A DNA stretch of 64,000 bases from Antedon mediterranea. Its lineage: Eukaryota > Echinodermata > Crinoidea > Comatulida > Antedonidae. The notes under the pieces are model-generated. The model was not told the origin of the DNA. It was given only the letters and a program-made list of their open reading frames with translations, and searched no databases. The stretch spans positions 10,220,932 through 10,284,931 of the forward strand of contig NC_092679.1 of the NCBI RefSeq assembly GCF_964355755.1. The letters run 5' to 3'. Shown here one piece after another: positions 7,401 through 62,790 of the stretch (the stretch's first letter is position 1; every line of letters starts with the position of its first letter). The position numbers were made by a program, and so were the translations under genes.

Positions 7401-7807
7401 TTTAGTTCATAGTTGAAATTATTTAGAGGGTTTGGTTTAGTTCATAGTTGAGATTATTTAGAGGGTTTGGTTCAGTTCATAGTTGAGATTATTTAGAGGG
7501 TTTGGTTTTGTTCATAGTTGAGATTATTTAGAGGGTTTGGTTTAGTTCATAGTTGAGATTATTTATAGGGTTTGGTTTAGTTCATTGTTGAGATTATTTA
7601 GAGGGTTTGGTTTAGTTCATTGTTGAGATTATTTAGAGGGTTTGGTTTAGTTCATAGTTGAGATTATTTAGAGGGTTTGGTTTAGTTCATAGTTGAGATT
7701 ATTTAGAGGGTTTGGTTTAGTTCATAGTTGAGATTATTTAGAGGGTTTGGTTTAGTTCATAGTTGAGATTATTTAGAGGGTTTTGTTTAGTTCATAGTTG
7801 AGATTAT
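4401..7807. repeat. 35-bp satellite array, first block (about 97 copies)
   Basis: Tandem units of GAGATTATTTAGAGGGTTTG plus GTTTAGTTCATAGTT (35 bp). Common variants are CATAG or CATTG, GGTTTAG or GGTTCAG, and TTTAGAGGG or TTTATAGGG. A few units are shortened, for example GAGATTAAAGGG at 4992 and 6599. The unit is not a multiple of three and carries stops in every frame, so it is non-coding. The left edge abuts LINE sequence directly. The right edge is an insertion point that splits a unit. Confidence 0.97.
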
Positions 7808-9143
7808 TGTAATATAATGTTGTGTTGTTGAGGTACTAATGAAAGACTCTTACTCGCTTAGCTGTCATAACACATATATTGTTTATTCAGTATAATACTT
7901 CAGTACAATAATGATTCGGTACAATATACTATTAGGATAAGGATACAGAGGATCAGTGATGCTTTCGGTGAGGTGTGAAGTGTGTAGATCTGCTTCTGAA
8001 GAAGTGGCTGTGAGGTGTAGATGTTCTTCTGAAGAAGTGGCTGTGAGGTGTGTGCTCCGTGAAATTGCTGTAAGGTGTAGATGTTCCGTGAAGTGGCTGT
8101 AAGGTGTAGATGTTCTTCTGAAGAAGTGGCTGTGAGGTGTGTCTGGGCCCTTCTGAAACTTGGGAGTATATTGGCTCCGGTTCATTTGCATATGTCACTA
8201 CGTAATCTGTGAGGGTAACGATTGGTCCTAAGTTGATCCAGGGGTGTTTAAGTGGGAGTGATTAACGGTATAATAAGGTATTTCTATGATGGATGACACT
8301 GTCAAATCTGTACTTAAATAGTGTCAATCTCTCCTGGTTTAACGATGGGAAAAGTCACAAAATTAAGCTAAGTGTTTTCTTTAGGGATTCTATTATAAAC
8401 TAAATGGTCATTAAAACATCTGGACAAACTCTCCTCTGGACTTTCTGGGTCAAGTTTTTTTTATGAATGATCTATTCTGGTCATATTTTTGAAATTGTTA
8501 TTACATGTATAATAATATATATATATATATTTTTATTCAACTGTCATTTATGATTATTGCTTATTGTCTCTATTGTTTACATATATATTTACTAATTGTT
8601 ATTGTTTTTATTGTAATTTATTTATTTATTTAATTTTTCCAATTTTTAATTCTTACATAGGACATCAAATTTTAAAGCTTTGCTTATAGTGATGCCCGAT
8701 TCAATCAATCAATATATAACTTTTGCTTAAAACCATGTTCAACTGTAGGCCGTTGCCAATATACAGTAATCTCCCTAAACAATGCTACTTTTAATACTTA
8801 CAATATTATATGTTTTCATCTTTTCCATTGATTGTAAACCTCTAACTAAACTTTCCAGTATTTTATTATTCAACTTCTGTTTCCAATAATAGTCAATATA
8901 AACAATTAATTTTTATTTTTATCATTACTGTAAATAATCATTGTATATATTTTATAATTTATATTTATATTGGTCTTGTTTTTTTTTTTTTTGTAAAAAT
9001 CTACTGTAATATTAAACTTTATTGTGGTTACCATTATAACAAATGTACGATTGATTGAATAAAGTTCACATATAGACTTAACCTATTTGAATTCCGATAC
9101 AAAGGTCAATTTCTTAAATATAAAAGTATATCGTTATATTACA
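7808..9143. mobile_element. TG...CA element (solo LTR or TIR element) inside the satellite
   Basis: A 1336-bp non-satellite block starts TGTAATATAATG and ends CGTTATATTACA, so the termini are inverted repeats matching at 11 of 12 positions. TTAT is duplicated at 7804-7807 and 9144-9147. Removing the block and one TTAT restores a perfect satellite unit. TG/CA ends, a short duplication and no coding capacity suit a solo LTR. The 12-bp inverted termini also fit a non-autonomous DNA transposon. It holds a short minisatellite, TA repeats near 8516-8530 and an AATAAA near 9057. Confidence 0.8.
7965..8150. repeat. Minisatellite within the inserted element
   Basis: Imperfect repeats built from GTGAGGTGTAGATGTTCTTC and TGAAGAAGTGGCT, about 33 bp with shortened variants. 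It explains the repetitive His/Ser/Thr-rich reading frames on the minus strand here, which I do not treat as genes. Confidence 0.75.
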
Positions 9144-12100: not shown

Positions 12101-15100
12101 GGTTTGGTTTAGTTCATAGTTGGGATTATTTAGAGGGTTTGGTTTAGTTCATAGTTGAGATTATTTAGAGGGTTTGGTTTAGTTCATAGTTGAGATTATT
12201 TAGAGGGTTTGGTTTAGTTCATAGTTGAGATTATTTAGAGGGTTTGGTTTAGTTCATAGTTGAGATTATTTAGAAGGTTTGGTTCAGTTCATAGTTGAGA
12301 TTATTTAGAAGGTTTGGTTCAGTTCATAGTTGAGATTATTTAGAAGGTTTGGTTTAGTTCATAGTTGAGATTATTTAGAGGGTTTAGAGGGTTTGGTTTA
12401 GTTCATAGTTGAGATTATTTAGAGGGTTTGGTTTAGTTCATAGTTGAGATTATTTAGAGGGTTTGGTTTAGTTCATAGTTGAGATTATTTAGAGGGTTTG
12501 GTTTAGTTCATAGTTGAGATTATTTAGAGGGTTTGGTTTAGTTCATAGTTGAGATTATTTAGAGGGTTTGGTTCAGTTCATTGTTGAGATTATTTAGAGG
12601 GTTTGGTTCAGTTCATAGTTGAGATTATTTAGAGGGTTTGGTTTAGTTCATAGTTGAGATTATTTAGAGGGTTTGGTTTAGTTCATAGTTAAGATTATTT
12701 AGAGGGTTTGGTTTAGTTCATAGTTACGATTATTTAGAGGGTTTGGTTTAGTTCATAGTTGAGATTATTTAGAGGGTTTGGTTTAGTTCATAGTTGAGAT
12801 TATTTAGAGGGTTTGGTTTAGTTCATAGTTGAGATTATTTAGAGGGTTTGGTTTAGTTCATAGTTGAGATTATTTAGAGGGTTTGATTTAGTTCATTGTT
12901 GAGATTATTTACAGGGTTTGGTTTAGTTCATTGTTGAGATTATTTAGAGGGTTTGGTTTAGTTCATAGTTGAGATTATTTAGAGGGTTTGGTTTAGTTCA
13001 TAGTTGAGATTATTTAGAGGGTTTGGTTTATTTCATAGTTGAGATTATTTAGAGGGTTTGGTTTAGTTCATAGTTGAGATTATTTAGAGGGTTTGGTTTA
13101 GTTCATAGTTGAGATTATTTAGAGGGTTTGGTTTAGTTCATAGTTGAGATTATTTAGAGGGTTTGGTTTAGTTCATAGTTGAGATTATTTAGAGGGTTTG
13201 GTTTAGTTCATAGTTGAGATTATTTAGAGGGTTTGGTTTAGTTCATAGTTGAGATTATTTAGAGGGTTTGGTTTAGTTCATAGTTGAGATTATTTAGAGG
13301 GTTTGGATTAGTTCATAGTTGAGATTATTTAGAGGGTTTGGTTTAGTTCATAGTTGAGATTATTTAGAGGGTTTGGTTTAGTTCATTGTTGAGATTATTT
13401 AGAGGGTTTGGTTTAGTTCATAGTTAAGATTATTTAGAGGGTTTGGTTTAGTTCATAGTTGAGATTATTTAGAGGGTTTGGTTTAGTTCATAGTTGAGAT
13501 TATTTAGAGGGTTTGGTTTAGTTCATTGTTGAGATTATTTAGAGGGTTTGGTTTAGTTCATAGTTGAGATTATTTAGAGGGTTTGGTTTAGTTCATTGTT
13601 GAGATTATTTAGAGGGTTTGGTTTAGTTCATAGTTGAGATTATTTAGAGGGTTTGGTTTTGTTCGTAATTGAGATTATTTAGAGGGTTTGGTTTAGTTCA
13701 TTGTTGAGATTATTTGGAGGGTTTGGTTTAGTTCATAGTTGAGATTATTTAGAGGGTTTGGTTTAGTTCATAGTTGAGATTATTTAGAGGGTTTGGTTTA
13801 GTTCATAGTTGAGATTATTTAGAGGGTTTGGTTTAGTTCATTGTTGAGATTATTTAGAGGGTTTGGTTTAGTTCATAGTTGAGATTATTTAGAGGGTTTG
13901 GTTTAGTTCATAGTTGAGATTATTTAGAGGGTTTGGTTTAGTTCATAGTTGAGATTATTTAGAGGGTTTGGTTTAGTTCATTGTTGAGATTATTTAGAGG
14001 GTTTGGTTCAGTTCATTGTTGAGATTATTTAGAGGGTTTGGTTCAGTTCATAGTTGAGATTATTTAGAGGGTTTGGTTTAGTTCATAGTTGAGATTATTT
14101 ATAGGGTTTGGTTTAGTTCATTGTTGAGATTATTTAGAGGGTTTGGTTTAGTTCATAGTTGAGATTATTTAGAGGGTTTGGTTTAGTTCATTGTTGAGAT
14201 TATTTAGAGGGTTTGGTTTAGTTCATAGTTGAGATTATTTAGGGGGTTTGGTTTAGTTCATAGTTGAGATTATTTAGAGGGTTTGGTTTAGTTCATAGTT
14301 GAGATTATTTAGAGGGTTTGGTTTAGTTCATAGTTGAGATTATTTAGAGGGTTTGGTTTAGTTCATAGTTGAGATTATTTAGAGGGTTTGGTTTAGTTCA
14401 TAGTTGAGATTATTTAGAGGGTTTGGTTTAGTTCATTGTTGAGATTATTTAGAGGGTTTGGTTTAGTTCATTGTTGAGATTATTTAGAGGGTTTGGTTTA
14501 GTTCATAGTTGAGATTATTTAGAGGGTTTGGTTTAGTTCATTGTTGAGATTATTTAGAGGGTTTGGTTTAGTTCATTGTTGAGATTATTTAGAGGGTTTG
14601 GTTCAGTTCATAGTTGAGATTATTTAGAGGGTTTGGTTCAGTTCATTAGTTGAGATTATTTAGAGGGTTTGGTTTAGTTCATTGTTGAGATTATTTAGAG
14701 GGTTTGGTTCAGTTCATAGTTGAGATTATTTAGAGGGTTTGGTTTAGTTTATTGTTGAGATTATTTAGAGGGTTTGGTTCAGTTCATAGTTGAGATTATT
14801 TAGAGGTTTGGTTTAGTTCATAGTTGAGATTATTTAGAGGGTTTGGTTTAGTTCATAGTTGAGATTATTTAGAGGGTTTGGTTTAGTTCATAGTTGAGAT
14901 TATTTAGAGGGTTTGGTTTAGTTCATAGTTGAGATTATTTAGAGGGTTTGGTTTAGTTCATTGTTGAGATTATTTAGAGGGTTTGGTTTAGTTCATTGTT
15001 GAGATTATTTAGAGGGTTTGGTTTAGTTCATAGTTGAGATTATTTAGAGGGTTTGGTTTAGTTCATAGTTGAGATTTTTTAGAGGGTTTGGTTTAGTTCA

Positions 15101-15877
15101 TAGTTGAGATTATTTAGAGGGTTTGGTTTAGTTCATAGTTGAGATTATTTAGAGGGTTTGGTTTAGTTCATAGTTAAGATTATTTAGAGGGTTTTGTTTA
15201 GTTCATAGTTGAGATTATTTAGAGGGTTTGGTTTAGTTCATTGTTTTCATAGTTGAGATTATTTAGAGGGTTTGGTTCAGTTCATAGTTGAGATTATTTA
15301 GAGGGTTTGGTTTAGTTCATAGTTGAGATTATTTAGAGGGTTTGGTTTAGTTCATAGTTGAGATTATTTAGAGGGTTTGGTTCAGTTCATAGTTGAGATT
15401 ATTTAGAGGGTTTGGTTTAGTTCATAGTTGAGATTATTTAGAGGGTTTGGTTTAGTTCATAGTTGGGATTATTTAGAGGGTTTGGTTTAGTTCATAGTTG
15501 AGATTATTTAGAGGGTTTGGTTTAGTTCATAGTTGAGATTATTTAGAGGGTTTGGTTTAGTTCATAGTTGAGATTATTTAGAGGGTTTGGTTTAGTTCAT
15601 TGTTGAGATTATTTAGAGGGTTTGGTTTAGTTCATTGTTGAGATTATTTAGAGGGTTTGGTTTAGTTCATAGTTGAGATTATTTAGAAGGTTTGGTTTAG
15701 TTCATAGTTGAGATTATTTAGAGGGTTTAGAGGGTTTGGTTTAGTTCATAGTTGAGATTATTTAGAGGGTTTGGTTTAGTTCATAGTTGAGATTATTTAG
15801 AGGGTTTGGTTTAGTTCATAGTTGAGATTATTTAGAGGGTTTGGTTTAGTTCATTGTTGAGATTATTTAGAGGGTTA
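9144..15877. repeat. 35-bp satellite array, second block (about 192 copies)
   Basis: Same unit and phase as the first block, continuing after the inserted element. It contains a tandem duplication of 1618 bp with copies at about 9.5-11.1 and 11.1-12.8 kb. Marker variants repeat at exactly that spacing: CATCGTTG at 9693 and 11311; a one-base-short unit at 10083 and 11701; an extra 9 bp at 10761 and 12379; TAGTTACG near 11103 and 12721. It ends mid-unit at 15877, next to the 5' region of an L1-like LINE. Confidence 0.97.
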
Positions 15878-43629: not shown

Positions 43630-44240
43630 TTCACGCTGCTGCTCTAGCCCGCTACGTCCCATTAGGACTACTCAATCAGAAGCTAAAGCAAGCAGCAGTT
43701 ATAGTTCTAAGGACAGACAGTTTTGTGAAAATGGAAACTCCACTATAATTTATTGATTCCAGCTGCTACAGTAGACCCAAAAAACGTCTGGGAAAGAGTC
43801 TATTAGGACATGTCATGCTAAAATTACAAATCCCTAAGCATTTCTGGTATATTCACTGTCAGATATTCATTGAATTATTATCGAAACAGGCCATTAAAGT
43901 TTGTGTTTGTAATAGGATACTTCACAATTGAAATATCTAGGGTGATGAAGTGACCCCCAGATTTGACCTTAGCAATAAAATTAACTAAAGTGACAGAAAT
44001 TGAGTATTCACTTCTGTAACAAAAAAATAATATTTATTCACATATAAAAAAAGAAAAGAAACCCAAAAACCATTGTCTGACAGACAATTTAAGTATTTGT
44101 TGCTTTAAATTACATTTTTTTCAGGTAAAATAACTATTATGTGACAATAAAATGACACATTCAAAAACATTTGAAATAAAAAATATTTTTCAATAAGCGA
44201 GCAGCGTTTTTTGTAAGAAATATTTCTTGTTTAAAGTGGA
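43630..44240 (-). mobile_element. L1-like LINE 3' end, 5'-truncated
   Basis: This is the reverse complement of 24399-24935, from the last ORF2 codons through the 3' UTR. It starts on the minus strand with AACAAGAAATATTTCTTACA and ends at ...GCAGCAGCGTGAAAA. It carries about 90 bp (near 43925-44030) absent from the other copy, so it preserves a longer 3' UTR version. Confidence 0.85.
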
Positions 44241-44815
44241 ATTAGACGTCCCTTCATGCGCTTAATAGTAGATGTTTGGTTACTGTCTGGGGAAGTATAC
44301 ATACTAAATAAGACTTGATTTAATAGATATTATAGATGTCACATTAAATAGAATTATGATAATATATTTTGCAATTGTAAACTATTTTATAATACATATT
44401 TATTAACAAACTAGTGTACATTCACTTTTACAGACAATTATTTACTAACATGCTAAATTAGTTCACAAAAAAGGCCTTGGCTCACATGTATTTTTTATAT
44501 CTCAATGGTATTTTCGTATATCCCAAGGGTAATAATTACAATGCAAAAAAAATAGCCGTGTGGTTGGTTAAATCCTGTAGTGATGGGGAATTTATAGGCT
44601 ACGGTCTTCTTGGGAAACGTACAGAATAAAGTTGCCGTCAATGGTATTTTCGTATATCCCCTGCAATGGAAAGTTAAACAATATGACGTGTGGCTCTTCG
44701 AGTTATTTAATCTTAGGGGTCGGAATCGGAAATTGTTGGCCTACAATCTGGGGCAACTTACAGCATAAAGTTGCTGTCAATGGTATTTTTGTGCATCCCA
44801 ATGTGTGGTTTTGAC

Positions 44816-45096
44816 AGGGTCATTCCGGCCTATCTTATCAATAACTCATCCAACAACAAATGACATAAACCCTGCGGAATTGTTCGTACGGTAACGTTTG
44901 TCTATTTTGGCTCTAATGGCCGCCCATAGCTGGGCAGACACGTTTCGCGCTCGCGACCAATCCGAAATAGTGGGTATAGATTTGTAAACAAACCGAACAC
45001 CTCTCGCCTAGTGCGTGTTGAAGCATAGCGAAATGGCGACTGCCGAGTGCTTTTGTTGCAAGGTGCATCCTAAATGTTGCATGTTGGATAAATCGT
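44816..45096. other. GC-richer promoter-like segment
   Basis: CACGTTTCGCGCTCGCGA at 44940-44957, CCAAT at 44959-44963 and CTCTCGCC near 45001 give this segment a CpG-rich, promoter-like look. A short reading frame follows from ATG 45033 (MATAECFCCKVHPKCCMLDK, then stop at 45096-45098). A related copy lies inverted at about 56945-57065. No downstream exon is confirmed. Confidence 0.35.
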
Positions 45097-45270
45097 GAAT
45101 TTAACTACACAAAATCACTGAATAATATTCCTGTTTTTAATTTTCAAACACTTGCTGAGTGGTTTGCGTCGGCTCCGAAGGATAGTGGCGCAAAATCTTG
45201 GAAATTTTTCAAGGAAAGGTACGTCCACGATGTGCTCGTGTCTCTCCGCCCGCCCGGTGGCGTTGCCTGA
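45031..45270 (+). pseudogene. Fragment resembling the start of SWIM/YqaJ-type proteins
   Basis: An open frame reads PVFNFQTLAEWFASAPKDSG followed by AKSWKFFKERYVHDV and stops at 45268-45270. From memory, invertebrate multi-copy proteins with a SWIM zinc finger and a YqaJ-like nuclease have a KxFxEGYVHDVxV motif near their N-terminus. The next conserved part is absent here. It may be a broken copy of such a gene or an exon. The overlapping MATAEC... frame from 45033 is one base out of register with it. No other conserved block is present. Confidence 0.35.
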
Positions 45271-45389
45271 TGCGGTACTTCGTCTACTCTAGGCCTAGGA
45301 GGCTTGGGTGTCTGTTTAAGCGCCGAAGAACATCACATAATACATGGAAGATGCAATAGGAGCATGAAGAAGAATGAAAGATAATAATT

Positions 45390-45510
45390 AATCAGAGTTC
45401 GTACGCGTCCTTAAATTCCTTGAAAGTCATGGAAAAATAAATCACTTTTTTCAAGTACTGGAAAGTCATGGAAATTGGCATTTTTGTCCTTGAATGTCCT
45501 GAAAATTGTT
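45390..45510. repeat. hAT-like terminus, left
   Basis: CAGAGTTCGTACGCGTCCTT followed by repeated GAAAGTCATGGAAA resembles the widespread hAT-type ends that start CAGGGTTCGTAC and carry CATGGAAA/CCTTGAA words. An oppositely facing counterpart is at about 56625-56704. No 8-bp duplication links them. Confidence 0.45.
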
Positions 45511-45599
45511 AAAATACAATAAAGTTATATGAATTCTTTTTAATAAAGTTTTGAAAACACTGAACAATAAAAGTATTAAGTATGAAAGTACATGGAAGA

Positions 45600-46184
45600 T
45601 AGCAACGTTGTACGTGCCGACCGTTCCCGCCGCCGATAAATACTCATACATGAAATAGGCTTTCTTATCAGGGTTGGTTGTTGGAAAGAACAATTCCATT
45701 TGACGTACACCGCACCACTCAAGAAAATTACCATGTGTGAGTGTTCATGCGAGCCGAACGATTGTTGTGGACATTCCATTTGCGTTCACGCACCTCCTTG
45801 TAAGAAATTACCACGTGTGTGTGTGTATGTGTTTTTATTTATTTATTTATTTGGAATTACACCTTTAGATCGGTGGCACACTTAGCACAAAGGTGCATCC
45901 TTCACAATATAAAATATAACAATTAACAGAAAAGTAAAAAAAGGCAAAAGCAACTATCAACCCCTATCCTACCACCTCCCCCCCCCCCCCCTAATTTACA
46001 TCGATACATACAGTAGATCATCACTTTACACAATGAATACAAAACAAGATATAGTAAAAGTGTATAAAATAAAATAAAATCAACTGATAAACACAGCTTA
46101 TTACGAAAAACCCCCAACCCTCCCCCCTCCCCACTTTTTTTTCAATTTACTTAATGTAGCAATGTAGATAACATGTGTATGACT
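45600..46184. other. Low-complexity spacer
   Basis: No gene. It contains TTTA repeats at 45836-45853, a C run at 45976-45991 and C-rich stretches near 46110-46130. TTTGGAATTACACC...CACAAAGGTGC near 45851-45896 next to the TTTA run could be a retroposon tail on the minus strand. Confidence 0.45.
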
Positions 46185-47385
46185 GGTTCTAGGACACCTA
46201 CCCCCTAGACAGTTACCCCCCGGATGTTTACCACCCGGACAACTACCCCCCGGACAACTACCCCCTTAGGACAACTACCCCCTTAGGATAACAACCCCCA
46301 GGACAACCACTCCCTTAGGACAACCACCCCTTAGGATAACTACTCCCCGGTCAACTACCCCCCGGTCAACTACCCCCCGGTCAACTATCCCTCCCCCCCC
46401 CCCCATCCAAAATCCAAAAGTAGACATAAAAATGAAATCATCTGTTTTTAACGGGTGTTTCGAAACTAGAGACCAGAGACCTGACACGAGACCCAATATG
46501 AAAAGGGAGACCTATATTTGGGTCTCCCTTTTCGTATATTAGGGTCTCCCTTTTCGTATAGTGTGGTCTCTCTTTTCGTATAGTGGGGTCTCCCTTTTCT
46601 TATAGTGGGGTCTCCCTTTTCTTATAGTGGGTCTCCTTTTTCGTATATTTGGGTCTCCCATTTTGTATATTTGGGTCTCCCTTTTCGTATAATTGGGTCT
46701 CCCTTTTCGTATATTTAGGTCTCCCTTTCGTATATTAGGGTCTCCCTTTTCGTCGTATAGTGGGGTCTCCCTTTTCGTATAGTTGGGTCTCCCTTTTCGT
46801 ACGTGGGTCTCCTTTTCGTATTGGGTCTCTGGTCTCGGGTCTCTAGTTTGAAACACCCGTTTTTAACCGATTATTCTGTTTAACAGCACGCTAGACCCTA
46901 GATGTGCTAGATTTAAAGTACCGTATTTATTGAAAAAACGGCCTGGGCTGTTTATTGTTTAGATGGTTTTTAGGTGGATATCTATTGGAAGAAAGTTGTT
47001 TATTCAATGGGAGGGGGTATAATCTAATGGAAATAGACGCCGATTATTCCATATGATGTTTCATGGGAGTGACATGGTCACCGTTTATATTTGAGGGGAA
47101 TTTATTTAAAGATCGCCGTTTATTCGGTGAGTGAACATTGAGGTCAAATATCAAAAGTGATATTATTCTTCAAGTGTACAAAAATACATATATGACAAAT
47201 TTGAGACAAAAATTAATTCTTTTAAGACCAGTGGTTATCGAAGCATTGTCCTGACGCAAAAATTATTATTATTATTAGCGAACCCAGTCTTTACAGTAAA
47301 TACAGGGAGTACTATATAATACGTTCGACTATCCTATGATCATGTGTGACAATCTTCAGTTTATATCAGGCTTATACACTGTTGC
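46185..47385. repeat. Left arm of a long inverted repeat
   Basis: It matches the reverse complement of about 61180-62799. It comprises a C-rich minisatellite (GGACAACTACCCCC-type, 46185-46400), the small TIR element 46452-46859, and about 500 bp of unique sequence ending ATGATCATGTGTGACAATCT. The arm is shorter than its partner because the minisatellites differ in copy number. Confidence 0.85.
46452..46859. mobile_element. Small TIR element filled with 22-bp tandem repeats
   Basis: Ends are CGGGTGTTTCGAAACTAGAG and its inverse CTCTAGTTTGAAACACCCG, flanked by TTTTTAA at 46445-46451 and 46860-46866. The interior is about 13 copies of GGGTCTCCCTTTTCGTATAG-type units. No coding capacity. Confidence 0.75.
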
Positions 47386-47399
47386 AGAGTCAGGTTGTT

Positions 47400-48038
47400 G
47401 AATGGTCTGGGTGGTAGTTGTCCGTCCGGGGGGTAGTTGTTCTAAAAGGATAGTTTTCTGGGTGGTAGTTGTCCAGGGGTTAGTTGTCCTACGGAGGTAG
47501 TTGTCCTAAAAGATTATTTGCCCTCGGAGTATTGTCCAGGTAGGAGGTAGTTGTCCTACGGGGAGTATTGTGTCAGAGGTAGTTGTCCGCGGGGTAATTA
47601 CCCGGGGGGGGGGTAATTCTCCGGGGGTAATTGTCAGGGGGTAATTGTTCCTAGGGGGTAATAGTCCGGGGGGTAGTTGTCCAGGGGTTAGTTGTCCTAC
47701 GGAGGTAGTTGTCCTAAAAGATTATTTTCCCTCGGAGTATTGTCCAGGAAGTAGTTGTCCTACGGGGAGTATTAAAAAATCGAAGATTCCAAAGGTTTCA
47801 CTTCCGCCGTGGTAACTCACTTCCGCCGTGGCATTCTGTAATTTGCCGTGGTGTTTCACTATTAATTTGCCGTGGTGCTTCAATACTAATTTGCCGTGGT
47901 GTTTCATTTTTAAGTTGCCCTGGTATTTTTGTTAAATTGCCGCGATGTTTTATTTTTAATTTGCCGTGATGTTTTATTTTTAATTTGCCGTGGTTTTTTT
48001 CAAATTGCCGTGGCTTTTTTCAAATTGCCGTGTGTAGT
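47400..48038. repeat. Two adjacent minisatellites
   Basis: At 47400-47770 a G-rich GGGGGTAGTTGTCC-type repeat lies in the opposite orientation to the one in the left arm. At 47795-48035 about nine copies of AATTTGCCGTGGTGTTTCAT-type units (22-28 bp) degrade to CAAATTGCCGTGG. Confidence 0.85.
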
Positions 48039-48435
48039 GAATTTATTTGTTGGTTCCGAGCTTTCTCAGGCGTATATATATAACTCCACGCGACGTACAC
48101 TGTAACTGAATGATAACTCATACAAAAAGTATATTTAACTCAACTAGAACTTTTATTCCTTGTAATTCGATTAATACATCTTTCTACCACTACCAGTCAA
48201 GCCTTAATATTTTCTTTATCATCTTTCCGTTTATCTAATCTGATCTTATTCTCTCTTCTCCCTAATATCTATTACATTCCACTTTTATACTGGACATGCA
48301 AATTTTAGGCTTCAGAGGAGGATAACATTTTCCCTCCAAAAATTATACGATTTTGATTGGCTAATAATATAAGGCGGACCTGGTCTAAAGCATCCTTCTC
48401 TAAACACAGAGAATCACAACATAAATAATATGACA
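48039..48435 (-). mobile_element. Gmr1-like 3' LTR (about 397 bp)
   Basis: On the minus strand it starts TGTCATATTATTTATG right after the polypurine tract AAAAAGGGGAA (48436-48446). The proposed end is AATAAATTCA at 48039-48048. With no second copy for comparison, the distal end is uncertain. Confidence 0.55.
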
Positions 48436-48536
48436 TTCCCCTTTTTGGGAAAAAGATTGTGTCAATCTTTCCAAAAATTTAACATTTAAAACCATTTTAC
48501 TATAAACTATCTACAAATACCACCTCTATAATATTA

Positions 48537-48905
48537 TTATGCACGGCTTAATCCATCTGCATTTCCATTTAATGATCCTTTCTTGTAAATAACTTTAAAT
48601 TTATATCCTTGTAAAAACAGAGCCCATCTCATAAGTCTAACATTGGCACCCTTCATTGAGTCCATCCATCTCAATGCCTGGTGGTCAGTATGAACTTGAA
48701 ATTCACAACCATACAGATAATACTTAAGTTTATTGATAGCCCAAACAATAGAGAGGCACTCTTTTTCTGGCACAGAATATCTCTGCTCATGTACAGATAA
48801 CTTTCTACTTAAGTACACAATGGGATAATCATTACCCTCACCATCTATTTGGCTCAGCACTGCACCTATGCCATAATTTGAGGCATCGGTTTGCAATATA
48901 TACAT
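48537..48905 (-). pseudogene. Gmr1-like RNase H domain
   Basis: 122 codons from Met 48905, with the frame open upstream. LQTDASNYGIGAVLSQ (first Asp), SVPEKECLSIVWAINKLKYY (Glu) and VHTDHQALRWM (Asp) are the three classical RNase H acidic positions. NADGLSRA closes the domain, with its last Asp, and the stop follows at 48537. It ends the polyprotein, as expected for an element whose integrase sits upstream. A frame change near 49005 separates it from the reverse transcriptase; downstream of the change the linking segment reads WNEQCENAFVTLKKRL. Confidence 0.85.
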
Positions 48906-48961
48906 CTTATCAAAATTTGGGGCTTTTAATACATTATCATCAGTAAGTCGTTTCTTTAAAG

Positions 48962-50761
48962 TTACAAAGGCATTTTCACATTGTTCATTCCACTTAACGG
49001 TATACTTTTACTCTTTAAAGTTAAATCAATCAATGGCTTAGCAATATCGGCATAGTTCTGTACAAATTTTCTGTAATAGCCCGTTAATCCGAGAAATGAT
49101 CGGACTTGTTTCTTAGACAAAGGTCTGGGGAACTTTTCCACAGCCTCGACCTTATCAATCATGGGTCTAATTTCTCCATTACCAATCTTATGCCCCAGAA
49201 ATTCTACCTGTGCATAGGCAATTTTACATTTCAAAGGCTTTGCTGTCAATCCAGCACTACTTAATCTTTCTAATACATCATTCAAATGAAAAATATGATC
49301 TTTCCAAGTTTGACTATAAATACATATGTCATCTATATATGCCTTAGCATATCCCTCAGTACCTTGTAATACCTTATCTATTAATCTTTGTAAAGTACTA
49401 GAGCTATTTTGCATACCAAATGGAAGTACATTGTAACAATACTGTCCAAATTGTGTAATAAATGCTGATTTGTCTTTGGTCTTAGGATCCAGAGGCACCT
49501 GGTAAAATCCTTTAGTTAGATCTAACGTAGTTATGTATATTGCGGATGATACCTCATCCAACATTTCGTCTATGCGAGGCATAACATAAGGGTCAAATTG
49601 TGTAGTCTTATTTAGTGATCTAAAATCTGTCACCATTCTAATTTGATTCTGGCCTTTCTTCAGGGCAATAATAGGTGCAGCATAGGCACTCACTGTAGGT
49701 TCTATTATACCCATAGCCAACATACTATCTAATTCTTCTTTCAATTTACCCTTTAATGCTTGGGGCGTTCTATATGCCCTATGCCTTATAGGCATTTCAC
49801 CATTAGTCTTAATTTCATGTGTCACTAAGTGAGTTCTACCTGGTACATCCGAGAATACATTCTGTTGGTACTTTAACAATTCTGTTAATTGTTTAGTTTG
49901 TGTATCATTTAAATTACTACTAACGTTAACATCTATCCATGTTTGTGATTGATGATAAGACAATCCTATGTCTATTTCACTATCTAACTCATTGTCATGG
50001 ACTGTTTCATTTAAGTCTACTTCTTCTATCGACTGAACATTTGTTACTACATAATAACCATCTTTACTTATTTCTACTTTATCATACCATCTCTTTAACA
50101 TATTAACATGTAGAATTTGTTTTTCTTTTCTTCTACCTCCTATGTATATTTCATAATTTACATCATTGACCTTTTTTGTAACAGTGAAGGGGCCTTGCCA
50201 TTTACTGTCTAACTTACTATTTCCTACTGGAAGGAATATCAACACTTTGTCCCCTTCTACAAATTCTCTATCAATAGCATTCTTGTTATAATTGTGGGAC
50301 ATAATTTCTTGTTGTTCAAGTTTGTTTACATTAGCATCTTTCATTAATTCCTCCATTTTTTCTCTTATGTCTAACATGTATTTGATAACATCAGTAGATG
50401 TTTCTTCATCTTCTACCCAATTACTTTTGAGTAAACTCAAGGGTCCCCTCACCTCTCTACCATAAAGCAATTTAAAAGGTGAATGGCCCGTCGCTTTACT
50501 AGGAACTTCTCTGTATGCAAACAGAAAGGGGGGTATGTAGTTATCCCAATTTTTTCTTTGCTTAACTGTAAGTGTCCTTATCATATTTTTCAATGTACCG
50601 TAAAATCTTTCAACAAGCCCATTGCTTTGGGGGTGGTACACTGTAGTCTTTAATTGATTAATCCCCAACATACTACATATAGATTGCATAATTGAAGACA
50701 TGAAATTAGTTCCTTGATCATGTACAATCTCTTCGGGTAATCCTACTCTAGTAAAGACTTA
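48962..50761 (-). pseudogene. Gmr1-like integrase C-terminal half fused to reverse transcriptase
   Basis: After an in-frame stop at 50759-50761 the frame reads VGLPEEIVHDQGTNF (second integrase Asp) and TTVYHPQSNGLVERFYGTLK (catalytic Glu), then GHSPFKLLYGREVRGPL and a GPY-like WQGPFTVTKKV...YEI. A linker of about 80 residues leads into the reverse transcriptase: PQALKGKLKEELDSMLAMGI, VTDFRSLNKTT, TLDLTKGFYQVPL (Asp), LPFGMQNSSSTLQRLID and AYIDDICIYS (YIDD near 49335), then the thumb FLGHKIGNGEI and SFLGLTGYYRKFV. Having both enzymes in one continuous frame proves the order integrase-reverse transcriptase within a single element. All catalytic residues are intact in this piece. Confidence 0.9.
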
Positions 50762-51217
50762 TATTAGAGCCCTGGCTACTGTTTCAGCTCTAACATTGGG
50801 TAACGGGATAGCATCCGGATATCTCGTAGCATAGTCAATTATAGTAAGCATATATTTGTTATTACGGCTTGTTCTAGATAAGGGTCCAACAATGTCTATC
50901 GCTATACGTTTAAATGGTGTACTTATAATCGGTAATGGTATCAAAGTATGTTTCCTTTTACTTTTACCCTTATCTACTTTTTGGCATTCCTTACAGACTT
51001 TACAATAGACTACCACATCTTTAAATATACCTGGCCAATAGAATTGGTTCAGGATCCTACTTTTAGTTTTCTCAACACCCATGTGACCTGCAAATGGCAC
51101 ATTATGACCTAAGTGTAATACACCCTGTCTACACTGAGTGGGTAATACAATCTGTTCCACTTGGTTATTCTTATCTTTAATACTACTCCAATTTCTCATC
51201 AATATACCTTGTCTCAT
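50759..51217 (-). pseudogene. Gmr1-like integrase zinc-binding and core start
   Basis: Reads HLGHNVPFAGHMGVEKTKSR...CKVCKECQ, the HHCC zinc-binding fold, then FKRIAIDIVGPLSRTSRNNK with the first catalytic Asp, and TIIDYATRYPDAIPL. It ends at an in-frame stop (50759-50761) whose removal would join it directly to the next piece in the same frame. Another in-frame stop at 51236-51238 separates it from the protease piece. The integrase is otherwise complete (HHCC, D, D, E), so the element was active not long ago. Confidence 0.88.
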
Positions 51218-51235
51218 AAAGAAACATACCCTATG

Positions 51236-52129
51236 CTAACCTATTTCTTCTACCCTGTCAAACACTCCTTTGAGTGAGTCATCCTTAGTTTGCAATTTGA
51301 TCAGTTCTTGTTTAGTTAGGTTCAGCTTGTGCTGTTGTTCATAAGTTTTACGTTTGACTGTTTTATCTTTAGCTTTATCCTCATTTTCGTCAAACAAATT
51401 ATTCATTTCTGTTCCATTCATCTCATCTAACCACTTAGTTTTATTTACTTTGTTGTCATTTACTACTGTTTTCAACAATTGTACATTAGTTTCTTTAGGC
51501 GGCTCTTCTATCGGCTTAAAGTTACTATCTTTCCCTAACAATATCATTTCGTCTTGTATTCTAACATCATTTTCTATTCTGGCTTGCTCCCTAGTTAGGA
51601 CGAACATTTCTTTAGCCATTGTTTCCCCACAATTCTGGTCCAAATCATGACCCAATAACATGTCCCTCTGCAATCCTTTGATTACGGCTACAATCACTTT
51701 TCCTGTCACTATCTTACTTTCTATAGCTACCTCAGCTAAGGGGACGGTAATATCGCCTCCTATACCTCTTAACGTAACCCATTTTCCTGGCAAGTAACAT
51801 TTGTTAGGCACTAGACTTTCCTTAACAGCTGACTGGGTACATCCCGAGTCTCTAAGCATAGTTATATCCTGTCCTTCTAATTTTCCTGGTATTGTACACT
51901 TCTCCATTTTATTTTCTACACTATCCATAACTACTTGGGGTCTATCTGATTTTAGTCCTTCACATCTTAAGCCATCTTTCACATTCGGGCCCTTCTTAGT
52001 GTCACTAGTCTTTCCTTTTGCTACCATCTTAGGACAATCCCCTATTTTATGTCCCTTCTCCTTACAATTAAAGCATAGGCCATTAATCCATTCATTTGAA
52101 GGTTTTTCTCTGTTGGAAATTTCTACCAT
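51236..52129 (-). pseudogene. Gmr1-like zinc knuckle and aspartic protease
   Basis: 297 codons. CFNCKEKGHKIGDCP (about residues 19-33) is a CCHC nucleocapsid knuckle. GQDITMLRDSGCTQSAV (about 85-101) holds the retropepsin DSG. LLGHDLDQ (about 157-164) fits the late protease motif, like LLGxD in gypsy proteases. The remaining 130 residues are Lys/Glu/Asn-rich linker up to the stop before integrase. It overlaps the preceding gag frame by 38 bp in another frame; that could be a natural frameshift site or a mutation. Confidence 0.82.
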
Positions 52130-53095
52130 AGTTATGGAATTTGCCTCCCCTTCCGCGATACCTATTGTATCCTTGCTGCCTAGCTCCAGGGTTATTCTGA
52201 GTCGTACTATTCTTAGGTTTACTATTTTCTTGGCCCTTATAATACGTAGGCTTATTTTCAGAATTTACGGCATTCCAATAGCCACGGCCACCTCTATTAG
52301 CTATATAATCATCGGCTATCATAGCCATATCATAGCTCTTATTTACTTGTTTATCTCTAAGATAAGGCCTCAGATCTTCAGGCATTTTATCAAGTGCCTG
52401 TTCCATTATAATCATTTCAATAATGCCTGCAGCATCATCTTCTTTTACTTTAGCACATTTCATCCAACATTTTAAATAATGGGAGAGCTCATTCAGCCAT
52501 TCCCTGATGGACATATCTTTAACTCTGTTTGAATTTCTAAATTTAAATCTGTAGGTCTCTGCGGACACATCATACTTTTCTAAGATTGCCTTCTTTAAGG
52601 TATCATAATCTACACATTCTTTTACGGTTAAGGATGCATATGCTGTCCTAGCTTTACCAGACAGTTCAGGTGCTATAACCTAGCGGACCACGTATTCTTA
52701 TCCCAACCTGTGGCTTCTGCCACGTGTTCAAATGTTCTAAAATATATATCAATATCATCTGATTCCTTCAAAGTAGGAACCTTTACCTTCATTTCATCTA
52801 CTATATTCCTAGCATTACTGTAGCTAGACCTATTTTCTAATTCCATCATTTTCACTCTTTCTTGTGATTCAATTTTTCTTTGCTCTATATCTATTTTCTT
52901 TTGCTCTATATCTGCTTTTAATTGGTCTTGTTGGTATTGTAATTCTAACTTTTTGTTTTCGGCCTCGAACTTCATTCGAAAATATTCGAGCATCATATCT
53001 TTAGGCATACCGCCGGGTATTTCGGGCAAATCAATATCCCTAGCCATTTTATCATATATTTCATTGACTTGGTCAACCTCTTCTTGGTCAACCAT
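52092..53095 (-). pseudogene. Gmr1-like gag
   Basis: Two frames. Piece one (53095-52673) has Gln/Lys/Glu-rich heptads (residues about 45-100, strong coiled coil) and ends TGWDKNTWSARL. A frame change near 52675 leads into APELSGKARTAYASLTVKEC, DYDTLKKAILEKYDVSAETY and RVKDMSIREWLNELSHYLKC (to 52092), then a Gly/Arg/Asn-rich basic tail. The LSGKAxxAYxxL and YxxLKxAILxxYxVSxExYR segments resemble the SCAN-like capsid fold seen in gypsy gag. Gag would form the particle that packages element RNA. The Met at 53095 is the first in frame; VDQEEVDQV follows. Confidence 0.78.
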
Positions 53096-53472
53096 ATGTT
53101 CAATACCGCTAGTGACTGTCGCGCCGTGACTACCCTCGACAGGAGGAAGTCTGGCGCGGTTTCACAAAGGCTTTTACATGTTACGTGTCATGTTACTCGT
53201 TTTTCCACGCCTATGTTTTCAGTACTGTATGTTTTTTTAGTGGCTTACAGTACTTGAATTTATGAAAAACATCGTAACTACAAAATTCTTCAATCTTAAA
53301 CATTTTTTTTTTATTAATCTGTTGAACTTAAAGACCCCTTCCCTGCAATTTTGGACGTTTTTTGGAAAATAATACATATCACTTTAAAAACATTAAACCA
53401 TGTCATTCCTTGTCTTAAATCTACGTTTTATGGTAAATTATGATAAAAAGTGAGAAACAATGCACTACCTAA

Positions 53473-56136
53473 TAGTCCAGTCAAAAATCACCCTCACCAT
53501 GGTATAAGAACGTACCCTAATCAAATTTCATCCGTAGGTTCTATGTATATAGGTAATAACATTTCTTGATGTTGCGTCTTGCAAAACTTGGGATTTTACG
53601 AGAAAATTAGACTTTTATACCCAATTTATAACTACCTCATGTCGTATTATTGTGTACAGCGAATGCGACGAAGCGTGACTGAAATTACGAGACGCCGTTT
53701 GCGCCCGTTGAAAAATGCATTAACAAAGCTAAAAACCTACAAAATTAATAGTTTATACAATAATTTAAATATAGTTTACAATAAATTGTATAATAAAATA
53801 CATAACATATCAAGAAAACTCAAGTATAATCTCAAATATTTACAGATATGTGTTTAAAAATGTACAAATCAAAATGGCCTTCCATAAAATAAAGTGCGCC
53901 CTCACTCGTCATACTTTTATCGGACTTGTATGGATGGTTATACAAGGCATTAATATTACGAAACCCGATGCGGTTTGTTCGTTATTGCCTCTGCAAGAGG
54001 CAGAATATTATATTTTCACAAATATATTTCTAGTTTTTATCATAGAAAAAAAGAATTGTATATATTTAAACATACAACCTCCAGTCTACCATCATGATGG
54101 ATTAAGTGAAGCGCCGTATTGTATATGCTATAGCGTCATGATCTTCTAGTTATCTGGTTATATTCTGGACATTCTTTTTTTCACAGCATTACTTGCGTGG
54201 ATATCACAATGCATTTGTTTATTCGCGATTATAGTCAATATTAATTTGAGTAAGAATCATTTTTAAATGACAGTCCATTTCGCATATACGATATAATAAA
54301 GATTTACATTAATAAAGTACTCTGAAATATTTTCTCATTGGTTATCCGCAACAAAGAATCCTTGTGATTGTTAGTTTTGTTTAATTTTCTTTGAATTGTT
54401 TATTGGCATCCATATCGTATGATGTGTGAGACAATTTCGTGTTTTAGAAAATGTAATCCTGCCACCGAAGATTCTTTCTGTTCGAAGACTTCTGACGGAT
54501 AACTGTGTTATTCTTTTACAATTAATTAATTAATGTTCATCTTCACTTTTGGGAAAAATAGCCTACATCTTTTAGGTTTAAAACGTCATTTATAAGTATT
54601 TGAATAAGCCAACAAATTAAACTACTGTGTTCTCCCAAGCTTTTTAAATTTTCTAAATGCATTAAAATGCGTCGGACTCGGCGGATAACAATATTTGAAA
54701 TAAATGCATATAAAACTTTTTTTCTGGACTTTACTTTTTTGTCCCAAGTGAGAACTTTCAGGCCGTGGAGGTGAACCGATCGTTTATGACATACTTTTGT
54801 GTATAAAATGTCCAATAATAATTGTAGGACTACTCTCAACCAAAACACTTTATATTAGAATGTATTTAATATACGTCACGTCTTAAAAAATTGGGAGAAT
54901 TGGGTAATACAGTATGTCGTTTTTCGCGAATCTTACATCACACTCCAACATTCTCACTTTCTTTTATTTAGTGAAATGTGAACGGTGGAAAAACGGGAAA
55001 ATACTTTAAATTTAGAATGCTTTGAATTCTGGAAGACGACTTCGAACTTAAAGAATCGTCATGAATGACGTTTATTGGCTCAAACTTCACACATCGGTAC
55101 GATGTGAAGGCCAGACGGATTCAGAGAGGATCAAACCGGCTCCTCCTCCCCATTGGCAGTGGGGGCATCGGCGGGTGAAAAGGAAAAATGATAAATGTTG
55201 ATTCAGACGAATGCCAACCAGCCCCTTTGATACGCTCTTAATAATTGTTGGAAAGTGAAAGTAGGGCTACTTGAGGTAGGGGGCCTAGTATCTTTCGTAT
55301 AGGCCTACACGAAATGGATTATCCTTAAATGATTGGTTCTTACTCTAATTAAGATCATAATCGCGAATGATAGTTCAAAATATGCAATGCATTGTGATAT
55401 CCACGCAAGTAATGCTGTGAAAAAAAAAGAATGTCTAAAAATAAAACCAGCAAAACTAGTAGTAGTAGATCATTACGCTTCAGCAGATATACAAATATAC
55501 ACTTAATCCATCATGATGGTATACTGGAGGTTGTAATGTGTTTAAATATATACAATTCTTTTTTTCCATGATAAAAATTAGAAATATATTTGTGAAAATA
55601 TAATATTCTGCCTCTTGCAGAGGCAATAACTAACAAACCGCATCGTGTTTCATAATTAATGCCTTTTTTAACCATCCATACAAGTCCGATAAAAGTATGA
55701 CGAGTGAGGGCGCACTTTATTTTATGGAAGGCCATTTTGATTTGTACATTTTTAAACACATATCTGTAAATATTTGAGATTATACTTGGGTTTTCTTTAT
55801 ATGTTATGTATTTTATTATACAATTTATTGTAAACGATATTTAAATTATTGTATAAACTATTAATTTTGTAGGTTTTTAGCTTTGTTAATGCATTTTTCA
55901 ACGGGCGCTAACGGCGTCTCGTAATTTTAGTCACGCTTCGTCGAATTCGCTGTACACAATAATACGACATGAGGCGGTTATAAATTGGGTATAAAAGTCT
56001 AATTTTCTCGTAAAATCCCAAGTTTTGCAAGACGCAACATCAAGAAATGTTATTACCTATATACATAGAACCTACGGATGAAATTTGATTAGGGTACGTT
56101 CTTATACCATGGTGAGGGTGATTTTTGACTGGACTA
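53473..56136. mobile_element. Foldback element with arms of about 0.81 kb
   Basis: Inverted arms at 53473-54283 and 55310-56136 start and end with TAGTCCAGTCAAAAATCACC. TAA is repeated at 53470-53472 and 56137-56139. Arms are highly similar, with scattered substitutions and short indels, for example a TTATACAAGGCATTAAT stretch in the left arm against a shorter TTAAAAAAGG version in the right. The 1.0-kb centre (54284-55309) has no recognisable transposase; a 101-codon minus frame at 54848-54543 matches nothing I know. The short reading frames that appear once in each arm are mirror images and need not be genes. Confidence 0.85.
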
Positions 56137-56139
56137 TAA

Positions 56140-57804
56140 GTAGCTCGCGGCGATCGACCTCTCGTGGACGGTCTTAGTTTTGTAGGCCTAGCTGGTAAAC
56201 ATCGATAACGTACGAACATCGTACGCTAGCTATATACCTAGCCTGACGTTGTATAGTTGCTGCATTAATTGTCTTTCTATTTTTGCCAGACTCCGTTGAT
56301 ACAAATTGGGGAAAACCCGGTATTTTCGCTGAAAAGTTAGGAGTCTTCCATTTGTTTTGGCTTCACGATCGATCGAAAAGTGGGCGAATTACAGGTGAAA
56401 AACAAAAATATCAATCCGCGCGCAATGCATTTTGGGATTTATAGCGGGCCTCTATAATTATTAGAATCGATTTATTTTTCACATTTTTAACCGTTTAAAG
56501 ACGAAAAAAGTTATCGCAATAGGACCATATAGTATTATTTTTACATTAAATATAGTTTGTGATCTTAAAATAGATCTAAAAAACGTAGGGAATGGGGCTT
56601 TAATATTTAGGTACAGTATATGTCCTTAAAATTTTAAAATATTGACATTGAATGTCCTTGAAATGTCCTGGAATTTTACTAGCTCACAGGTGTACGAACC
56701 CTGATTAAAAAATAATATATTTACGCAACATTTGTAAATAAAATCAACAGTTATGTATTAAATTCACTGTAATATATATGTGTCAAACCAAAAATGACAA
56801 TACATAAATAAGTCGATGATTCCGAACCAAATGCCCAAATAATTCTACAGTGAATATAAAACATAAGTTTAGAAAATAAATAACATCCTTACCATGCCAT
56901 TCCATCAAAAGGCTAGTTTTGACGATTGCTTTTTAAGATGATCATCTCTCAGTTCTCCCATGCTTTAACATACCTCTCGCGCGCTGTGTTTGTTTACCAT
57001 TGTATACCCACTAAAAGGTCAAACTGACGGTGACCTCGCGAGCGCGAAACGTGTCTATTGGTTGGCTGATGCTGCTCTTGCATGCTGTTGTTTGTGTGAC
57101 GAGACTGGTGTATGAAAAGTTCTATCGGGCCTAGCTCGAGATATACTACAGTTTTAAGCCTGAAACAGTATTCCTAGCTTACGCTGTTATTCTACAAAGT
57201 CGTTTAGCTATAAATATTTAAAACTAAGTATCATTAAAGAATAAAATGGTAAGCAATTTATTGGCTTAGCCTCCTAGCTAGCTTTTAGGTAGGAGGCTAG
57301 CTTACTACTACTACTAGCTAGGCCTAGCCTAGACCTACGGCCTACACTGGCTACTACTAGGATAGATATATTAGGCCAAGTTGAACGGTAGCGGGACGGT
57401 TCGGCGCTGAGAAAAATGGCTTCGATTGAACTGTGGCCATTTTAGAATCAGGAAAATTGCCAGAAATCAATGTAGGCCTAGGCTACCTACCTATGTTTTA
57501 TTTTTATTTATACCTGCAGAGAATGGTTTTATAAAGAACCAGCTGTACATATATTATGACTGAGTTCGTACATATAACATTTTATTTTTTTTTAAACAAT
57601 TTACAGTTTTAAAAATCATAAAAATTAAACCATATTTCAATTTCACTATGTAAGACATATCTAAAATTGTCTATCAAGAGCAAATATTGCTATCTCACTG
57701 TATTAAAAAATAGAAAATGATTTGTTTTTGTTTTAGACTTGAATGTATTGATTAGTGACCAAGATAATTTTCTTTGATAGGCCCTATTAAAATGAATAAT
57801 AATA
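56140..57804. other. Non-coding region with repeat ends and a promoter-like block
   Basis: AAAACGTAGGGAATGGGGCT near 56580 resembles CCTTCCCTGCAATTTTGGAC near 53338 in reverse complement and may be the end of a MITE-like repeat. 56625-56704 is an hAT-like end facing left. 56945-57065 is an inverted copy of the CpG-rich block at 44.9 kb. An ATG at 57246 is followed directly by GTAAGC, which could be a start codon abutting a splice donor, but no exon follows. Confidence 0.4.
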
Positions 57805-58840
57805 GGGATAACGATGCAAAATTAAAAGTTCTTATTTTTCAACCAATTTAAACACTATATGTTAGTATTTTGTTTCAATATTCCAATAAAGAAAGAATTA
57901 CGAAAATCTGACTTGTAGTTTTCGAAATATAAGGTCTAAAACATCTCCGAAAATGATCGTTTTTGGCCACGAACGTTGTAAACAAATTGCGCCCTCAGTC
58001 GACAATTGTATGAACCACACCAATTTTCGCTAAAATAATTACAAATAATTACGTTTTATAGTAATTTATTTTATATATCAACATTGGAAATATCAATAAA
58101 ATATGTTATTAAATGTTTACAAAATATATAAAATTGTTTATTTAACGGAATTCGTACAAATTCATTGCTCTAAATTTGTGTAGTAACATCAGTACAGACA
58201 GACCATGTGACTTCGCGGTACACGCGAGAGAAAACATTCCGCTGTGGGTGATTCGCGTCCACCAATCAAATAGCCAGGATCCAAAAGCATTCAACCGTGA
58301 GCTCTGCCGATCGCGGGAAATCTCAGCTTTGATTGGCTTACGATGACATCATATCACAAAATGGTGGTTTTGTAGTTGAGCCTCACGTAATTTTCACAAT
58401 TTTATTTTAAAAATGAAATAAATGGACCTTCTTTATGGTATGTGTGATTTTTCTCTAAAAGATTTAAATAATAAAGGCTTCATATAGAGAAAAAACCGTT
58501 TTTTTGGCACTTATAATAAATATTTCTCAGAGAAAAAAGCACATGGCATGTAGAACTATATTATCTTGGCGTAGGAAGACAAACAAATCCCAGGTCATGA
58601 GAGGCTCAACTACAAAAACAAGGTTGAATAGGGTTAGGTCACTGGACCGTTCGAAGGTTTTTGAGTAAACAATCTACCGCGTATGGTCGTACGCGCTAGA
58701 CAGTACGATATTTTAACCACATTTTGTACATGTTTGGTTGAATGTAATGACGATAAAAAATAGTTGATCTTATGGAATGATATGTAAATAAATAAATACT
58801 CAAAAGAATTATGTTTACAGTTCAATTATTTTCAGAATAA
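57805..58840. repeat. Direct duplication, copy 1 (about 1.04 kb)
   Basis: From GGGATAACGATGCAAAATTA to TTCAATTATTTTCAGAATAA. It contains an internal inverted repeat, GGTTTTGTAGTTGAGCCTC at 58366-58384 and GAGGCTCAACTACAAAAAC at 58601-58619. Copy 2 is at 59167-60166. Confidence 0.85.
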
Positions 58841-61696: not shown

Positions 61697-62089
61697 CGGG
61701 TGTTTCGAAACTAGAGACCCGAGACCAGAGACCCGAGACCCAATACGAAAAGGGAGACCTAAATATACGAAAAGGGAGACCCACGTACGAAAAGGGAGAC
61801 CCCACTATACGAAAAGGGAGACCCCACTATACGAAAAGGGAGACCCCAATATACGAAAAGGGAGACCCTAATATACGAAAAGGGAGACCTAAATATACGA
61901 AAAGGGAGACCAAATATACGAAAAGGGAGACCCAAATATACGAAATGGGAGACCTAAATATTTCGAAAAGGGAGACCCACTATACGAAAAGAGAGACCAC
62001 ACTATACGAAAAGGGAGACCCTAATATAGATCTCCCTTTTCGTATTGGGTCTCGTGTCAGGTCTCGGGTCTCTAGTTTCGAAACACCCG
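61697..62089. mobile_element. Small TIR element, second (inverted) copy
   Basis: Ends CGGGTGTTTCGAAACTAGAG and CTCTAGTTTCGAAACACCCG, with a tandem interior of ACGAAAAGGGAGACCCCACT-type units. Its flanking duplication is the exact complement of that at 46445, so both copies descend from one insertion that was then duplicated in inverse orientation. Confidence 0.75.
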
Positions 62090-62154
62090 TTAAAAACAGA
62101 TGATTTCATTTTTACAGAAACCGGTCCTATATATTTGTCTACTTTTGGATTGGG

Positions 62155-62790
62155 GGTGGGGGTAGTTGACCAGGGGGTAGTTGACCAGGGGGTAGTTGAC
62201 CGGGGGTAGTTGACCGGGGGGTAGTTGACCGGGGGTAGTTGACCGGGGGTAGTTGACCGGGGGGTAGTTGACCGGGGGGTAGTTGACCGGGGGGTAGTTG
62301 ACCGGGGGGTAGTTGACCGGGGGGTAGTTGACCGGGGGGTAGTTGACCGGGGGGTAGTTGACCGGGGGGTAGTTGACCGGGGGGTAGTTGACCGGGGGGT
62401 AGTTGACCGGGGGGTGGTTGACCGGGGGGTGGTTGTCCTAAGGGGGTGGTTGTCCTAAGGGGGTGGTTGTCCGGGGGGTTGTTATCCTAAGGGGGTTGTT
62501 GTCCTAAGGGGGTTGTTGTCCTAAGGGGGTTGTTGTCCTAAGGGGGTAGTTGTCCTAAGGGGGTAGTTGTCCTAAGGGGGTAGTTGTCCGGGGGTAGTTG
62601 TCCGGGGGATAGTTGTCCGGGGGATAGTTGTCCTAAGGGGATAGTTGTCCTAAGGGGATAGTTGTCCTAAGGGGATAGTTGTCCGGAGGGTAGTTGTCCG
62701 GAGGGTAGTTGTCCGGAGGGTAGTTGTCCTAAGGGGGTAGTTGTCCGGGTGGTAAACATCCGGGGGTAACTGTCTAGGGGGTAGGTGTCC
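62155..62790. repeat. G-rich 14-17-bp minisatellite
   Basis: About 40 units. First GTAGTTGACCGGGGG (15 bp, more than ten nearly perfect copies at 62258-62415), then GTAGTTGTCCTAAGGGG and related variants. One strand has regular G5-G6 runs. Confidence 0.9.

Follow-up and report, generated by a model that had tools for sequence, protein, structure and literature searches.

The Gmr1 clade of Ty3/gypsy long terminal repeat (LTR) retrotransposons is said to go back to Goodwin and Poulter in 2002. Placement of the integrase (IN) before the reverse transcriptase (RT) in a gypsy element is given as the mark of this clade in the available parts of three reports (PMC3587641, PMC6238403, PMC8220671). 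For the Gmr1-Gmr4 elements of Tetraodontiformes, the text available from one study gives lengths of 6,058-6,465 bp, LTRs of 337-518 bp and one Gag-Pol open reading frame (ORF) of 1,506-1,634 amino acids (aa), and describes the Gmr1 insertions as young (PMC11117352). Yeast Ty3 (PDB 7q5b, 4ol8), which has the closest solved RT to that described here, differs in that its RT precedes its IN (the RT match lies at 563-848 of the Ty3 chain and the IN match at 1223-1446). We analyzed a 64,000-nucleotide stretch of contig NC_092679.1 (positions 10,220,932 to 10,284,931 of the forward strand; hereafter the window) and found on its minus strand a Ty3/gypsy element in which IN precedes RT. It very probably belongs to a young Ty3/gypsy family of the Gmr1 type, as a copy that is dead and truncated at its 5' end. 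Our confidence in its structure is high, and our confidence in the clade name is a little lower. Integrase-first gypsy elements are an already known type, and the window family is an additional member.

The element contained, in order, a gag fragment, a SCAN-type capsid domain, a CCHC knuckle, an aspartic protease (PR), the H2C2, core and C-terminal domains of IN, RT, RNase H (RH), a polypurine tract and an LTR (Table 1), so that the Pfam domain order placed IN between PR and RT. A single minus-strand frame of 598 aa (48962-50758) encoded the second half of IN together with most of RT, as a first-pass annotation of this DNA had described. The Pfam cut-offs were passed by the SCAN, H2C2, p58-type IN C-terminal, RVT_1 and RNase H matches; the CCHC knuckle, the protease and the split IN core fell below them, and the second half of the IN core gave phmmer matches to the PFV and Ty3 integrases. 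Both RT and RNase H were of the gypsy type (PF00078, PF17917 and PF17919), as in the Gmr1 clade, and Ty3 was the best relative of the IN-RT frame in the PDB (E 1.8e-76). Among solved SCAN domains in the PDB, the window Gag matched those of PEG3 (4.9e-4), ZNF24 (0.0095) and ZNF174 (0.065). By published descriptions, the window family and the Gmr1 clade are alike in having IN upstream of RT, a gypsy-type RT and RNase H, and a SCAN-type capsid.

Table 1. Features of the integrase-first element, with positions in the window.
Feature	Position	Strand	Evidence
5'-truncated Ty3/gypsy element, very probably of Gmr1 type	48033..53101	-	5,069 bp, without 5' LTR; 97.0-98.0% identity to four sister copies
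gag, 5' fragment, start missing	52673..53101	-	Frame; 82-97% match to sister copies where present
SCAN-type capsid C-terminal domain in Gag	52293..52559	-	PF02023 E 5e-9, 36.3 bits, cut-off 27
CCHC zinc knuckle	52028..52078	-	PF00098 E 0.0047, below Pfam cut-off
Aspartic protease	51626..51892	-	PF13650 E 1.8e-4 and PF00077 E 0.0012, both below cut-off; DSG in frame
Integrase zinc-binding H2C2	50975..51142	-	PF17921 E 1.7e-17
Integrase catalytic core, in-frame stop inside	50570..50917	-	PF00665 and PF13683 partial, below cut-off
Integrase C-terminal domain (p58-type), upstream of RT	50090..50194	-	PF22938 E 5.2e-13
Reverse transcriptase, gypsy type, YIDD	49184..49660	-	PF00078 (RVT_1) E 5.4e-31; Ty3 best solved relative
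RNase H, gypsy-type	48603..48917	-	PF17917 E 6e-40, PF17919 E 6.7e-37
Polypurine tract aaaaaggggaa, adjoins 3' LTR	48436..48446	-	Sequence; same position in sister copies
3' LTR, TGT...ACA, 403 bp	48033..48435	-	Sequence

The window copy lacked the 5' LTR, the leader and the start of gag. Of the hallmarks of an LTR retrotransposon it kept the 3' LTR and the polypurine tract, and paired LTRs, a primer-binding site and target-site duplications were found in sister copies. A search of 44000-58000 for direct repeats of at least 40 nt found none flanking the element that could represent its 5' LTR. Comparison with four sister copies placed the border of homology at 53101 in three of them and at 53078 in the fourth. 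The first-pass annotation had drawn the element from 48039 to 53257; an element does lie there, but its ends are 48033 and 53101 according to the LTR sequence and the sister copies. The DNA past 53101 matched other repeats: 53097-53331 recurred in full or almost in full at four further places, all of them away from the IN-RT matches, and 53326-53472 recurred at more than 30 places. The reading frames were broken by frameshifts in gag, by two in-frame stops in PR-IN and by one frameshift between RT and RNase H, in agreement with the two stops and few frameshifts first described. The window copy is dead, and the Gag-Pol protein cannot be made from it. The IN and RT catalytic residues seen had been reported as intact, and DSG in PR, HHCC and D-D-E in IN, YIDD in RT and the acidic residues of RNase H were readable in the frames.

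The genome (354 Mb, 18 contigs) was searched with the 598-aa IN-RT frame as query. Because scoring was limited to the top 73 of 1,693 candidates, the match counts are lower bounds. The whole IN-RT stretch was covered in at least 35 of 74 match rows (window included), 28 of these 35 being free of stops in the match. At least 10 copies of the window family lay in open frames of 1,531-1,571 aa (one with a TGA in the match, and one matched in two pieces), and a second family at 54% identity was represented by at least six rows, of which three occupied 1,536-aa frames. The order gag-PR-IN-RT-RH was present in all 17 loci fetched, L001-L017 (13 of the window family and four of the second family). 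An LTR pair was detectable in 8 of the 13 window-family loci. In the six pairs with both ends reached, 0-3 substitutions were counted per 400-489 aligned positions (0-0.8%, gaps aside), with a 32-nt gap in one pair, and two partial pairs had 1 difference in 270 and 8 in 379 positions. All six copies with both LTR ends were flanked by 5-bp target-site duplications. A primer-binding site, TGGTGGCAGCGGTG, lay directly 3' of the 5' LTR in the sister copies. When CCA was appended to a tRNA-Leu(AAG) gene from the same genome, the site was complementary to the 3' end of that tRNA over 14 of 14 nt. The 3' LTR of the window copy was found at 39 further places of the genome at 95-98% identity (40 of 271 candidates scored). 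By these data the window family is a young, recently active LTR retrotransposon family, and this genome holds copies that have both LTRs and a continuous frame, which the first-pass annotation had proposed to seek. Copies L006, L008 and L009 were about 6.1-6.2 kb long, and the LTRs of the family measured 400-489 bp; judged only by the dimensions in the available text on the Tetraodontiformes Gmr1-Gmr4 elements, the family is similar to them in length, LTR and size of the single ORF.

Sister copies with intact frames would produce one Gag-Pol polyprotein, in which the SCAN-type capsid would serve particle assembly and PR would cleave the polyprotein. With tRNA-Leu as primer, RT-RH would copy the RNA, and the cDNA would be inserted by IN with 5-bp target duplications; such copies may still be mobile at present. 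A tRNA-Leu-like pattern had 236 matches in the genome, and 97 of the 100 matches listed fell in a tandem array of tRNA-Leu-like genes at G000:C3 ~11.559-11.585 Mb and beyond, with a spacing often of about 172-187 bp.

The relationship of the window family to gypsy elements with RT before IN was then analyzed. Twenty rve loci were chosen from 150 rows for variety and long open frames, that is, non-randomly; 15 were RT-first, three were integrase-first and two were left without a verdict because L018 gave no RT match and L037 no match at all. At least six diverged integrase-first lineages were present in this genome, and from some of the further integrase-first loci the IN-RT part only was fetched. 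A first RT tree and an IN tree were built with 10 chosen of 27 integrase-first rows, the window included, and a second RT tree with seven of those 10 plus L055, L056, L057 and L059; the comparison set was 15 sampled RT-first elements of this genome plus Ty3. The integrase-first rows grouped together in the first RT tree (support 93/97; 10 versus 16 rows, Ty3 included), in the RT tree with more lineages (97/96; 11 rows, one of them a derivative without integrase, versus 15) and in the IN tree (94/91; 10 versus 15 rows). L031 was omitted from the IN tree, its best match to IN being located in a second frame. Long branches within these sets were L028 and L035 and, on IN, Ty3. The approximately unbiased (AU) test rejected a joining of the window family to either of two RT-first lineages (p-AU 3e-43 and 1e-67), these two groups having been named after the first tree was seen. 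Relative to the sampled elements and Ty3, RT and IN thus stood outside the ordinary gypsy lineages, and the placement of RT within them that the first-pass annotation had named as contrary to its proposal was not observed. Because the integrase-first rows formed one group, one change of order is needed in this sample; the trees were unrooted and do not give the direction of the change. The switch may have happened a single time, in an ancestral element whose integrase-first descendants are diverse in this genome today. With many young copies and several such lineages beside ordinary gypsy elements, the genome is therefore suited to a study of how the order originated.

Next to the order of domains, the capsid was examined. 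All eight Gag pieces from the clade, derivatives included, gave a SCAN match (window, L015, L026, L032, L054, L055, L056 and L059). No SCAN match with an E value of 0.1 or less came from 10 RT-first Gag pieces, which represent 10 of the 15 RT-first loci. Seven of these 10 had a recognisable knuckle or capsid (PNMA, Retrotrans_gag or Ty3_capsid matches, or a knuckle alone). Genome-wide, the best 150 of 215 SCAN candidates were scored and all 150 were listed (top E 4e-23). An IN-RT match lay 0.5-5 kb downstream of 55 of these 150 hits, and 0.5-5 kb upstream of none. The lineages of L038 and of L039/L042 had, by position, SCAN hits upstream of their IN-RT matches; examples of such positions are the SCAN hit at C7:17067118 before the IN-RT match at C7:17063986 (minus strand) and that at C9:9673357 before C9:9675037. 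When 58 of the 150 rve rows were compared, no row lay 0.5-6 kb downstream of any of the 150 SCAN hits. This held even for the three integrase-first loci among these rows, whose weak SCAN matches (25-26 bits) were not among the 150 of 215 candidates scored. These results tie the SCAN capsid to the integrase-first group within this genome, and the SCAN-type capsid is an independent line of support for an assignment to the Gmr1 clade. In the available portions of published work, the vertebrate SCAN domain is derived from the capsid of Gmr1-like elements (PMC3406341, PMC3424704, PMC4592553), and in the frog SCAN is reported from over half of the Gmr elements and from no other LTR element of that genome (PMC4131045).

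Several points weigh against an assignment to the Gmr1 clade. Because the trees were built without a Gmr1 reference sequence, the clade name rests on the order of domains, the SCAN capsid and the size. The SCAN matches of L015, L026 and L032 (25.5-26.4 bits) were just under the Pfam cut-off of 27, and the eight SCAN pieces were not independent, since L026 and L032 belong together in one family, as do L054 and L059; moreover, L054 (gag only) and L059 (without integrase) do not themselves have the integrase-first order. For 95 of the 150 SCAN hits, the matches listed included no IN-RT match at 0.5-5 kb downstream. Six of these 95 loci were examined, of which L055-L057 were integrase-first, L054 and L060 were gag only and L059 was without IN. 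Zebrafish Gypsy-like loci with SCAN-type gags are also reported (PMC8672886), with no domain order seen in the part of that source available, and SCAN is therefore possibly not exclusive to Gmr1.

It is improbable that the integrase-first order arose independently in the host lineage, in an element that functions like Gmr1 and lies outside that clade. The integrase-first lineages of this genome did form a group of their own in trees that held no named Gmr1 reference, as such an origin would have it. However, their capsid is of the SCAN type, which published work derives from a Gmr1-like Gag as far as its available text goes (PMC3406341, PMC4592553), their size and single ORF resemble the fish Gmr elements in the accessible description (PMC11117352), and to assume a second origin is less parsimonious. 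Membership of the Gmr1 clade accordingly remains our preferred assignment.

A chance fusion of two truncated elements at about 50.1 kb, which would give a false integrase-first order, was also considered, as a case that the first-pass annotation had named as contrary to its proposal. In favor of fusion, the window copy is truncated and has other repeats around it, but at least 34 matches elsewhere in the genome crossed the same IN-RT junction without interruption at 95-99% identity. The order also occurred in five other lineages, and the RT and IN trees agreed on the grouping. Fusion was rejected on the independent copies, which carry target duplications of their own, and it is hardly credible. 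The integrase-first order is beyond chance, being repeated in these other matches, and the copia-like gag-PR-IN-RT-RH order first proposed for this Ty3/gypsy element was borne out by the Pfam order, by the matches across the junction and by all of L001-L017. The analysis confirms that the order is a stable, inherited trait of one gypsy clade, and not an artefact of assembly or fusion. A Ty1/copia element, to which gag-PR-IN-RT-RH order would be native, was rejected as next to impossible because no copia-type RT was found by Pfam or PDB comparison, RVT_1 and RT_RNaseH being of the gypsy type, the IN C-terminus of the p58 type and Ty3 the best solved relative.

The first-pass annotation had also taken a Gmr1-like element as a pointer to a deuterostome host. 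This inference fails because such elements are reported from other animals: four Gmr1-like elements from crustaceans (GyRex4, Gychoro2, GyMaja1 and GyLiva4; PMC3587641) and one from an annelid (LGF3 of Lamellibrachia luymesi; PMC8220671), as given in the available parts of these papers. They belong to the Gmr1 clade outside the deuterostomes and are likened to the window family by description. Within the accessible text of a further paper, Gmr1 is listed among clades found in several phyla, and the annelid survey of that paper found none (PMC8556966). A search of the assembly for mitochondrial COX1 was negative, and glycosyl hydrolase 6, a tunicate marker, likewise gave no match, a result without weight as its control also failed to match. 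The element has no bearing on whether the host is a deuterostome.

Derivatives without integrase were found beside the integrase-first elements. L059 (G000:C5:23864900-23869400) contained SCAN-gag, PR and RT, without integrase in the stretch read, and its RT fell inside the integrase-first clade. Related matches at 98-99% were present on C10 and C6, and L059 is therefore perhaps a deletion derivative that was moved in trans. L054 and L060 (G000:C1:24.32-24.37 Mb) were gag-only SCAN frames of 376 aa; they were 99.9% identical over 3,322 bp, which points to a segmental duplication. Four SCAN hits lay within 45 kb in this region, and one of these was followed by an RT match. Should the host be an invertebrate, at least six integrase-first SCAN gypsy lineages might have radiated in it. 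They would include a SCAN-PR-RT derivative that lacks integrase and was moved in trans, and a SCAN frame, gag only and duplicated, that is perhaps becoming a host gene; we consider this whole scenario quite improbable. If it were true, the gag-only frame would be a parallel to the vertebrate SCAN story.

The surroundings of the element were also surveyed. Rfam gave no match at gathering thresholds in window 44000-58000, and among viral contigs three stretches fitted a pattern for relatives, none of which was confirmed. At 53469-56140, close to where the element is truncated, lay two arms of about 604 bp in inverted orientation, 1.5 kb apart and 96-98% complementary. Given these arms and the adjoining repeat 53326-53472, this region could represent a DNA transposon that has long terminal inverted repeats. 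Minisatellites with units of 15, 22 and 24 bp occurred at 46169-48032 and 61713-62790; one abutted the 3' LTR, and related units were present in both places (GGGGGTAGTTGTCC; a 22-bp unit with GGGAGACCC). A tandem array of 11.5 kb occupied 4395-15876, with about 327 copies of a 35-bp unit (also read as 105 bp) and an extreme GC skew of 0.59-0.76.

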